Positions 3,280 to 11,631 of a stretch of DNA of 32,082 bases are shown piece by piece. The first letter of the stretch is position 1. Every line of letters starts with the position of its first letter. The notes under the pieces were generated by a model that ran no database searches, was not told where the DNA came from, and saw only the letters and a list, made by a program, of their open reading frames with translations. A program made the position numbers and the translations under genes. The stretch lies in contig PLED01000018.1 in NCBI GenBank assembly GCA_003136355.1, positions 2,139 through 34,220 on the forward strand, in the 5' to 3' direction. The stretch is from Vulcanimicrobiota bacterium (GTDB lineage: Bacteria > Vulcanimicrobiota > Vulcanimicrobiia > Vulcanimicrobiales > Vulcanimicrobiaceae).

Positions 3280-3311
3280 CTCTCCACACTTGTGGAGAAG
3301 GCTGTGGAAAG
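3280..3311. promoter_or_regulatory. DnaA-box cluster I (inverted pair plus one)
   Basis: TCTCCACA at 3281-3288 and TGTGGAGA at 3291-3298 form a perfect 8-base inverted repeat with a two-base centre. Each half is a one- or two-mismatch DnaA box (consensus TTATNCACA). A third, TGTGGAAAG at 3303-3311, follows in the same orientation as the right half. Confidence 0.6.
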
Positions 3312-3440: not shown

Positions 3441-3457
3441 TGTGGATAAGTGGATAA
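3441..3457 (-). promoter_or_regulatory. DnaA-box cluster II: tandem high-affinity boxes
   Basis: TGTGGATAA (3441-3449) is an exact consensus DnaA box read on the minus strand, and AGTGGATAA (3449-3457) directly abuts it with one mismatch. A weaker opposing box TTCTACACC (3432-3440) precedes them. Located about 130 bases before the dnaA ATG, they fit both origin function and DnaA autoregulation. Confidence 0.75.
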
Positions 3458-3586
3458 GAATCTCTTAATTTACCGCAGGATACGACCCCGATAGCGCCAA
3501 CCTGTGCGCCTCCACGAAGGGACTGCGCCGTCAGACTTTTGTCGATGGTGGAGTTCCGAACTAGACGACGACGGGACGGATACAGG

Positions 3587-4957
3587 ATGGCGCTTGCGGC
3601 TGGAAACACCGATATTTCCAATGAACTCTGGCAAACCGCACTCACAGCGCTAGAACGAAAGTTTTCCAAACCAGTTTACGAGATGTGGATCAAGCCGTTG
3701 CGGCTAGTATCCCTCAACGGGAACGAGCTGCTGCTGGCGGTCGGGAACACGTTTGCCCGCGAATGGACCGAAAACCGCCTCAAAGTGCAGATCGCCGAAG
3801 CGCTCGCCGAAACGTTCGGAACGGTTTTCGAGCTGCAATTCGTTATCGTCGAACCGCTTAGCGAATCGCCCGCAGCCGAAGGGTCCGCGCCGCCCGCGAC
3901 GGGCTCCGCCCGCCTGCAAACCGAGTTCCGGCCGGGCAATCTGAACTCGCGCTATAAGTTTGAAGAGTTCGTCATCGGCAATTCCAACCGGTTCGCACAC
4001 GCCGCGGCGCAAGCGGTCGCAGCGGCGCCGGCGCGCGCATACAATCCGCTGTTTTTGTACGGCGGCGTCGGACTGGGCAAGACGCATCTCATGCACGCGA
4101 TCGGACACCGGGTGCTGCAAGACATTCCCGACGCCAACGTCGTCTACGTATCGAGCGAAAAATTCACCAACGAATTCATCATCGCGGTGCAAAACAACAA
4201 GACGCTCGAGTTTCGCAACAAGTATCGCTTGGTCGACGTCTTGCTGATCGACGACATCCAATTCTTGGAAGGCAAGGAAGGCACGCAAGAAGAGTTCTTC
4301 CACACCTTCAACGCGCTGCACGAATCTGGGCGCCAGCTCGTCATCTCGAGCGATCGTCCGCCCAAAGAGATTCAAACGCTGGAAAACCGTCTGCGCTCGC
4401 GGTTTGAATGGGGACTGCTCACCGATATTCAGCCGCCCGACTTGGAAACGCGTGAAGCGATTCTGCGCAAGAAAGCGGAGTCGGAGAAGATTCCGGTGCC
4501 CGACGAAGTGACGTCGTACATCGCCAAAGTGATCCCATCGAACATCCGCGAGCTCGAGGGCGCGCTGATTCGCGTGGTCGCGTTCTCGTCGCTAACCAAG
4601 TCTTCCATCACGGTCGACCTCGCCGCCGAGGTACTGAAGAACGCCGTGGCCCAGATGCCGCTGCGCCGCGTAACCATTGACACCATCAAAGACAAGATCG
4701 CGAAGGCGCACGGACTGACCATCAAAGAAATGGACAACCACCGGCGCGACCAGCGAGTAGCCGGCCCCCGTCAGATCGCCATGTTCGTCTGCACCGAACT
4801 GACGGATTGTTCTCTGCCCCACATCGCGCGTGAGTTCAATAAGAAGGACCACACGACGGTGATGTACGCGCGGGACAAGGTCAAGGACCAAATGCAGCGC
4901 GACGAAGCCTACCGCAACAAGATCCGCTCGCTCCTGGCGCTGTGCCAGACCGACTAG
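3587..4957 (+). CDS. dnaA: Chromosomal replication initiator DnaA
   Basis: AAA+ ATPase that binds DnaA boxes, opens oriC and recruits the helicase. The 456-residue protein has domain I (about 8-85: LWQTALTALERKFSKPVYEMWIKPL), a short linker (90-115), the AAA+ domain (about 120-345) with Walker A GGVGLGKTH (Lys165), Walker B LLIDD (Asp222-223), sensor I ISSDRPP and sensor II IRELEGALIR, and the DNA-binding domain (360-456) with DHTTVMYARDKV. In the basic loop the usual VARPRQ reads VAGPRQ (390-396), losing one Arg; other contacts are kept. I chose the ATG at 3587 because it places domain I at its normal distance; earlier in-frame starts at 3539 (TTG) and 3545 (ATG) would add an uncharacteristic Arg-rich leader. 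Confidence 0.97.
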   Translation: MALAAGNTDISNELWQTALTALERKFSKPVYEMWIKPLRLVSLNGNELLLAVGNTFAREWTENRLKVQIAEALAETFGTVFELQFVIVEPLSESPAAEGSAPPATGSARLQTEFRPGNLNSRYKFEEFVIGNSNRFAHAAAQAVAAAPARAYNPLFLYGGVGLGKTHLMHAIGHRVLQDIPDANVVYVSSEKFTNEFIIAVQNNKTLEFRNKYRLVDVLLIDDIQFLEGKEGTQEEFFHTFNALHESGRQLVISSDRPPKEIQTLENRLRSRFEWGLLTDIQPPDLETREAILRKKAESEKIPVPDEVTSYIAKVIPSNIRELEGALIRVVAFSSLTKSSITVDLAAEVLKNAVAQMPLRRVTIDTIKDKIAKAHGLTIKEMDNHRRDQRVAGPRQIAMFVCTELTDCSLPHIAREFNKKDHTTVMYARDKVKDQMQRDEAYRNKIRSLLALCQTD

Positions 4958-5138
4958 CGTTCCTACATCTTATATACACGACATGATGCACAGGGCGGCT
5001 CCCAACGCGTGGATAACTGGCCGGAAGCGGCCGGCGGTGTAAATGTGTAGGAAGTCCCCAAGGTCTTGCACAGGTTATGCCGGGCACAAACCCGCATCGT
5101 AGCAAGCAAATCGGGGCTTCTTCGCAGAATGCACCGCC

Positions 5139-5156
5139 TTACTACTACTATTATTA
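5139..5156. promoter_or_regulatory. Putative DnaA-trio element
   Basis: Six consecutive triplets TTA-CTA-CTA-CTA-TTA-TTA. Their complement reads 3'-AAT-GAT-GAT-GAT-AAT-AAT-5', i.e. three perfect and three near-perfect 3'-GAT-5' trios, all with the central A known to matter most for single-strand DnaA binding. They directly precede the AT-rich tract 5151-5174 and follow a weak DnaA box and GCC. Confidence 0.65.
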
Positions 5157-5164
5157 GATCTTTT

Positions 5165-5170
5165 TATAAT
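5165..5170 (+). promoter_or_regulatory. Possible dnaN -10 element inside the AT-rich tract
   Basis: A perfect TATAAT lies 32 bases before the dnaN ATG, but the position 17-18 bases upstream is the CTA triplet run and has no match to TTGACA. It may be a promoter for dnaN, a part of the unwinding element, or both. Confidence 0.3.
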
Positions 5171-5202
5171 AAAGAGCCAACGACGACAGCAATGAGTGTG
5201 GA

Positions 5203-6318
5203 ATGAAGTTCACCTGTAACACGAAAGACATCTCCGGCGCAGTCGGTGCCGCAAGCAAGGTCGTTAACGCGCATACGACGGTTCCGATCTTGTCCAACGT
5301 GCTGCTCAGCGCAGACGACGGCAAGATATCGGTGCGCGCGACCGATCTCGAAGTGACGCTCGAACACGCTTTCAAGGCCGAGGTCAGTGAGTCGGGCAGC
5401 GTGACGGTCCCGGCAAAATTGTTCAGCAGCTATTTGGGCAATCTGCAAGCCGGACTCATGGAACTGACCGGAACGCCGACTCGTGCCAGCGTCAAATACG
5501 AGCGCAGCAGCTACGATTTCCACGCATTGCCGGCCGAAGAGTATCCGCCGCTGCCCACCGCGCAGAAGGGCCAGAACTTCCGGATCTCCGCCAAGAGATT
5601 TCGTGACGGCGTCAACGCCGCGATCTTCGCCGCCTCGAGCGAGGAAGCGCGCGGCGCGGTCCTGATGGGCACGCTGCTCGAACTCGAAGGCGACTCGCTG
5701 ACGATGGTCGCGACCGACGGTTACCGCCTGGCAAAATACCAAACCACGCTAGAGAGCGGCATCTCGGGCAGCGAAAAATATATCGTGCCGTCGCGCGCGC
5801 TCATCGAGGCAGCGCGGAATGTGGGCGGCGCGGAGTTCGTCGATGTCACCGCGCTCGGTACCCAGAGCAACCAGCTGATGTTTTCGGCAGCCGACGCGTC
5901 GATCACGGTCCGTCTGGTCGACGGACAATATCCCAACTACGGGCAAGTCATCCCGGCGAAATTCGATCGCTCGATGACGGTGAGCACACCGAGTTTAATC
6001 GCCGCGCTGCGCCGCGCCGAACTGGTTGCCGGCGATCGCGCAAGCATGGTGAAGCTCGCGGTGGCAAATCAAACGCTGATCGTCACCGCAAGTTCGGACG
6101 TCTCTGGCAACGCGTACGAAGAGCTCGAGGTCGAACAGCAGGGCGAAGATTTGACCATCGCGTTCAACGCCCGTTATCTTGTGGAGATTCTCAACCACAT
6201 CGAAAGCGCGCAAACCGTGATGGAATTCCTCGGACCACTTTCACCGGCGGCCATCAAACCGGTCGAGCCGGCGGAGGGCGCGCAGCAACTTTACGTTTTG
6301 ATGCCGCTGCGGCAATAG
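5203..6318 (+). CDS. dnaN: DNA polymerase III beta subunit (sliding clamp)
   Basis: The homodimeric ring that tethers DNA polymerase III to DNA and serves as a docking platform for replication and repair proteins. The 371 residues are normal length and split into three similar clamp folds: 1-120 (MKFTCNTKDISGAVGAASKVV, then the family phrase TTVPILSNVLL), about 128-245 (ATDGYRLAKYQ near 170) and about 250-371, ending in VLMPLRQ, the usual VLMPxR terminus that helps shape the peptide-binding pocket. The ATG at 5203 gives the expected N-terminus. The stop TAG shares its last base with a GTG that could start the next gene. Confidence 0.97.
   Translation: MKFTCNTKDISGAVGAASKVVNAHTTVPILSNVLLSADDGKISVRATDLEVTLEHAFKAEVSESGSVTVPAKLFSSYLGNLQAGLMELTGTPTRASVKYERSSYDFHALPAEEYPPLPTAQKGQNFRISAKRFRDGVNAAIFAASSEEARGAVLMGTLLELEGDSLTMVATDGYRLAKYQTTLESGISGSEKYIVPSRALIEAARNVGGAEFVDVTALGTQSNQLMFSAADASITVRLVDGQYPNYGQVIPAKFDRSMTVSTPSLIAALRRAELVAGDRASMVKLAVANQTLIVTASSDVSGNAYEELEVEQQGEDLTIAFNARYLVEILNHIESAQTVMEFLGPLSPAAIKPVEPAEGAQQLYVLMPLRQ

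Positions 6319-8912: not shown

Positions 8913-8913
<1 letters not shown>
7807..8913 (+). CDS. recF: DNA replication and repair protein RecF (probable ATT start)
   Basis: SMC-like ATPase acting with RecO and RecR to load RecA at gaps. Features: Walker A GANAQGKSN (Lys36), the family phrase GTGKSFRTSRERDLIR, the ABC-type signature FGSQGQQRTAVLA and Walker B LLLLDDVLSELD. The first standard start codon is GTG at 7837, but that would remove the first conserved beta-strand. In-frame codons upstream encode IRLDSLTLSNVRNYAHLEL, which aligns with RecF N-termini from the first residue if ATT at 7807 is read as Met. ATT overlaps the preceding TAG (ATTAG), as ATGA would. CTG at 7813 is the other option. 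With ATT the protein has 368 residues. Confidence 0.93.

Positions 8914-11631
<2,718 letters not shown>

Follow-up and report, generated by a model that had tools for sequence, protein, structure and literature searches.

The DnaA-trio was reportedly defined in a 2016 Nature paper, and at the centre of a trio an exocyclic amino group is offered by A and C only. In Bacillus subtilis, the structure of DnaA on the unwinding module of the origin (BUS) contains six trios, the first two bases of each trio being captured between neighbouring DnaA protomers while the central base offers an amino group to Asn187 (PMC10721633). When a central C was engineered in this organism, strand separation in vitro was about as good as with A (PMC10721633, Fig. 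4), and growth and initiation in vivo were better than with G or T (PMC10721633), from which the authors drew the view that other DnaA proteins might read a range of sequences. A BUS has also been predicted in 1755 of 2070 origins by a rule that searches for NAN trios together with a box, within 16 bp, that has no more than two mismatches (PMC8287927); since this rule requires NAN, it renders central-C trios unreportable. DnaA reading of single-stranded origin DNA has so far been described in atomic detail from one organism. In the literature searched, which did not extend to subscription papers such as the founding 2016 one, we found no report of natural central-C trios, and our literature search likewise found no origin work in the phylum Vulcanimicrobiota.

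The stretch of DNA analyzed here (hereafter the window; 32,082 nucleotides) lies on a 34-kb contig of a Vulcanimicrobiota draft genome of 2.52 Mb in 111 contigs. Its gene order includes a jag-like (R3H/KH) gene and, further along, dnaA, dnaN, a phosphoesterase gene, a recF-like gene, dciA, and gyrB. The initiator gene dnaA (3539..4957, plus strand) encodes a protein with the Pfam domains Bac_DnaA (8e-76), DnaA_N, and Bac_DnaA_C that aligns with B. subtilis DnaA (8btg) at an E value of 6.7e-148; position 3539 is the longest-ORF start, and the real start is probably further in. The sliding-clamp gene dnaN (5203..6318, plus strand; Pfam DNA_pol3_beta domains) begins with an ATG at 5203. The phosphoesterase-family gene (PF04185, 6318-7811) between dnaN and recF is an unusual insertion in the dnaA-dnaN-recF-gyrB block, and a gene for a DciA-type helicase loader (8913-9743) lies between recF and gyrB, near the origin. 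An Rfam search of the dnaA-dnaN gap gave no match, and a promoter and terminator scan detected none.

Within this gap, on the plus strand, box A (TTCTTCGCA, 5118..5126) occupies the position of B. subtilis DnaA-box 6 and abuts box B (GAATGCACC, 5127..5135), at the position of DnaA-box 7; they have three and four mismatches, respectively, to TTATCCACA, the E. coli consensus used here as the standard. There follow a GC step (GCC, 5136..5138), six DnaA-trios (TTA CTA CTA CTA TTA TTA, 5139..5156), which read 3′-AAT GAT GAT GAT AAT AAT-5′ on the trio strand, and an AT-rich tract of low duplex stability that continues the unwinding element (GATCTTTTTATAATAAAG, 5157..5174). The geometry is 9 bp for box A, 9 for box B, 3 for the step, and 6×3 for the trios, in the order boxes, GC step, trios, AT tract, dnaN. 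Box B, the GCC, the six CTA/TTA triplets, and the AT tract to 5174 are present letter for letter as the initial annotation had described them; the single weak box that it reported is real, but the better box abutting it, box A, had been missed. The YTA pattern repeated six times has a single match in the window at up to two mismatches, with 0 in 100 dinucleotide-preserving shuffles, and across the 2.52-Mb genome it matches exactly only once. Likewise, the sole run of at least five NTA triplets in the 757-kb contig of a congener (G003) is that genome's own copy of the module. Positions 5139-5174 are the least stable 36-mer of the window, with a nearest-neighbour energy of -34.2 compared with a mean of -55.3 (sd 3.9) kcal/mol.

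We also analyzed GC skew, a check suggested by the initial annotation. On the G003 contig, the cumulative minimum falls at ~420 kb and dnaA at 447 kb, a distance of ~27 kb that was measured at 20-kb resolution and in the congener, not in the draft genome itself; the skew is opposite on the two sides (left mean -0.015, right +0.013). The minimum is within ~30 kb of dnaA, and the check did not refute the initial annotation. In a single-contig genome (G014), 14 sparse 20-kb samples gave no usable skew signal.

Other DnaA boxes surround the module. A leftward box with one mismatch (TTATCCACG, 5008..5016, minus strand) is located 110 bp upstream of box A; most family relatives have its counterpart at -109 to -113. 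Two weaker box-like sites, each with three mismatches, correspond to clearer positions in relatives: the leftward TCCTACACA (5044..5052, minus strand) to leftward boxes with one or two mismatches at -72 to -75 in many of them, and the rightward TCTTGCACA (5064..5072, plus strand) to CCATCCACA/TCGTCCACA-like boxes at -53 to -55. At a fourth, weak rightward site (TTATGCCGG, 5075..5083, plus strand), several relatives carry TTATCCNNN at -43/-44. Across relatives, the distances of these boxes to box A are near-fixed, at about -110 and -74/-81 for the leftward and -54 and -43 for the rightward ones. Upstream of dnaA lies a further cluster (3441-3457 and 3291-3299, one box being perfect), which includes TTATCCACA at 3441-3449 and TTATCCACT at 3449-3457, both on the minus strand; the boxes at 3441-3457 could possibly form the second half of a bipartite origin or serve dnaA autoregulation.

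All usable genomes of the genus retain the module, as does most of the class (phylum Vulcanimicrobiota/Eremiobacterota), so that the triplets, whose loss in close relatives would have counted against the initial annotation, prove to be conserved. In 51 class members, whose gaps were anchored on a motif model with modest scores for some members of the sister family f3, both boxes are followed by a step of three bases and roughly six triplets. A held-out set consisted of 57 further loci, 48 of them with an anchor score of at least 10, for which the model comprised boxes and spacer only, such that the trio letters were unable to influence the register. Eight of these loci were dropped for a score below 10 (L192, L200, L222, L225, L228, L238, L241, and L246), and L245 was dropped because it had no gap; the trio pattern is visible by eye in L225, L228, and L238. 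Over 83 origins of the family, positions 1, 2, 6, and 8 of box A are nearly invariant as T, T, C, and C (core TTnnnCnC), as is the CACC end of box B, and box A has one or two mismatches in many relatives. The counterpart of the AT tract averages 76% AT in the family, compared with 38% in the rest of the upstream intergenic region. In L054 and several f3 loci (L006, L007, L011, L015, and L022), the module is 150-165 bp from dnaN, compared with ~65-70 elsewhere, leaving an extra stretch between the opening site and dnaN. Some relatives encode a second or divergent protein with a DnaA C-terminal domain (L056 in G038, L192 in G097, and L057 in G039); the stretches fetched after these extra copies contain neither dnaN nor the module.

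Comparing the trios among the 83 origins reveals a top-strand pattern, 5′-N[T/G][A/G]-3′, that is repeated six times and then ends: [T/G][A/G] is found in 83, 83, 81, 82, 78, and 55 of 83 origins at trios 1-6, and in 6/83 at trio 7. The centre is T or G (A or C when read on the trio strand) in 493 of the 498 cells of trios 1-6 (36/83 at trio 7), and in 286 of 288 cells of the held-out set with its boxes-only anchor. All six trios of this genome have a central A, as the initial annotation stressed, but what relatives conserve is not a fixed A: their centre is A or C, and 70 of the 83 origins carry at least one central-C trio. At the box-proximal trios (1-2 in the family), central A is almost invariant, and central C is common in trios 4-6, most often at 5 and 6; in the sister family f3, it is common as early as trio 3 (trios 3-6).

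We counted central changes by parsimony on a DnaA+DnaN family tree. The results show 41 changes in the family, of which 36 (88%) are T<->G, corresponding to A<->C transversions on the trio strand, whereas T<->G makes up 9% of changes in the spacer that precedes the boxes and 8% of those in the AT tract. Nineteen of the 22 changes away from a central T lead to G (binomial p 1.9e-8 versus the upstream spacer, presuming independent parsimony changes and a gap-free alignment of the control columns), and a 99-tip analysis gives the same picture. Changes at the first position of a trio are mostly C<->T and those at the third mostly A<->G, which leaves the centre as the only position that avoids the usual transition. 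Origins with a higher local GC content tend weakly to have more central-C trios (Spearman 0.27, p 0.013). This A/C pattern is what the amino-group chemistry of B. subtilis Asn187 predicts, and the occurrence of central-C trios in nature looks like support from evolution for the amino-group rule; the amino contact itself would be carried over to this lineage from the B. subtilis structure.

Outside the phylum, we examined 56 anchored origins, mostly from Bacillota and some of them mis-anchored. Bacillota loci show the same 9+9+3 layout (e.g., TTATCCACA-TATTCACAG-GCC-CTA CTA) and commonly five to six trios; the B. subtilis structure has six as well (PMC10721633), and the present run is not unusually long, contrary to its earlier description. 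Non-T centres in trios 2-5 of the 56 origins are G in 24, A in 9, and C in 4 cases, and Blautia-like origins read CTA CGG CGG TTA, indicating that central-C trios are not confined to Vulcanimicrobiota. Three Blautia-type (Clostridia) origins, L120, L121, and L145, contain many CGG trios (central C) and are more GC-rich than the 3′-GAT-5′ consensus.

Based on this comparison, we consider it highly probable that the dnaA-dnaN gap is the unwinding module (BUS) of the origin, along whose six trios DnaA adds and whose trio centres need an amino base, A or C. The conserved architecture, the A/C restriction, and the conserved contact residues are direct observations in this lineage. Among the 60 class members with usable sequence, the residues corresponding to the B. 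subtilis trio contacts Glu183, Asn187, Ile190, Asn196, Arg202, Lys222, Glu223, and Glu228 are identical in 60/60, as is the RSRF arginine (arginine finger); Ile193, replaced by V/I/L, is the sole trio-contact residue that varies. DnaA binding and strand opening are transferred from B. subtilis. By analogy, two DnaA molecules would bind the double-stranded boxes A and B, after which DnaA-ATP would add protomer by protomer on the strand complementary to the printed one, each protomer taking one trinucleotide of the six trios. A pocket between neighbouring protomers would capture the first two bases of a trio, opening the DNA toward dnaN, and the central base would need to carry an exocyclic amino group of a suitable kind, as A and C do, and not to be A as such. 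The earlier proposal of a probable strand-opening site directed toward dnaN has the orientation right, with opening itself put forward by analogy, and it stands because the module is conserved across the class, the box spacing is fixed, and the skew of the congener turns near dnaA.

Other readings of the triplets were weighed against the same data. Their period of three could be a codon period, and an ATG at 5129 does open a 25-codon ORF in the window, a potential leader peptide whose stop overlaps the dnaN start. Such a start codon is present at that site in just 31/83 relatives, however, each of the three frames is broken by stops within the module in 41-49 of 83, and in other phyla, too, these boxes are followed by these triplets; we rejected this coding explanation as extremely improbable. 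It is also quite unlikely that the region is a plain AT-rich melting element (a microsatellite-like CTA repeat) or a dnaN promoter, with no base-specific reading by DnaA. The lowest duplex stability in the window and a TATAAT string within 5157-5174 fit such an element, but drift or melting alone would not forbid T->C yet allow T->G at every third base, relatives carry G:C pairs at the centres of distal trios, and the consensus promoter scan was empty. The AT tract may nevertheless double as a dnaN promoter beside its role in the BUS.

An unlikely, if somewhat more serious, alternative accepts the BUS and attributes the A/C restriction to a second reader, for example a helicase-loading or other protein on the opposite strand, instead of the DnaA amino contact. 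B. subtilis DnaD recognizes a motif opposite the trios (review PMC13220808), and a different kind of helicase loader, DciA, is encoded in the window. Yet in period (three bases) and in length (six trios) the restriction follows the DnaA oligomer, whose known amino-group chemistry it also fits, and C likewise predominates among the alternative central bases of origins outside the phylum.

Returning to capture by DnaA, we lean, with some reserve, toward a natural code of the "central amino base" type, 3′-N[A/C]Y-5′, in which A is required only at box-proximal trios. This code would be followed openly in Vulcanimicrobiota and partly in other phyla, many origins would have been mis-scored, and DnaA would open tracts containing G:C pairs by base capture. 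If the pattern is read correctly, evolution has, in a second phylum, carried out this base swap dozens of times and arrived at the same result, A or C and not G or T, which would support nucleobase capture as a general mechanism and a better origin search rule. The module also marks a candidate opening site in Vulcanimicrobiota, a poorly studied lineage. The element belongs to a familiar origin type, of which it is an unremarkable, though degenerate, case; what sets it apart is the relaxed but chemically sensible trio code, which shows up only when relatives are compared.

The element class and order equal those of the BUS predicted by PMC8287927. When we re-implemented that rule on 83 gaps, it found the module in 43 and missed this window and about half of the family. 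The window has more than the three consecutive 3′-NAN-5′ trios asked for (six, all with central A), but no co-oriented box within 16 bp at two or fewer mismatches to TTATCCACA (box A 3, box B 4). Since box A keeps both its position and its TTnnnCnC core among relatives, this failure amounts to box degeneracy relative to the E. coli consensus, and we therefore class the locus as an orthologous variant that probably works like a BUS, not as a match under the published rule. Its DnaA carries the trio-contact and arginine-finger residues, and its location is that of a chromosome origin, in the dnaA-dnaN gap, the skew turn near dnaA being that of the congener. Compared with the B. subtilis incC BUS of DnaA-boxes 6/7 and trios (PMC6669920, PMC10721633), the locus shares two co-oriented adjoining 9-bp boxes, a short GC step, six trios, and an AT tract, a site between dnaA and dnaN with putative opening toward dnaN, the trio-contact residues of DnaA, and a distal box cluster upstream. 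It differs in that both boxes are degenerate, that the central trio base of relatives is A or C instead of A, and that a DciA-type loader is encoded in the gene cluster. An A-or-C centre is what a 2023 Bacillus biochemistry paper would lead one to expect, and what appears to be new here, within the searchable literature, is the evidence from nature: the base swap is the same as in the engineered central-C trios of B. subtilis (PMC10721633), whereas here it is natural, recurrent, and lineage-wide.
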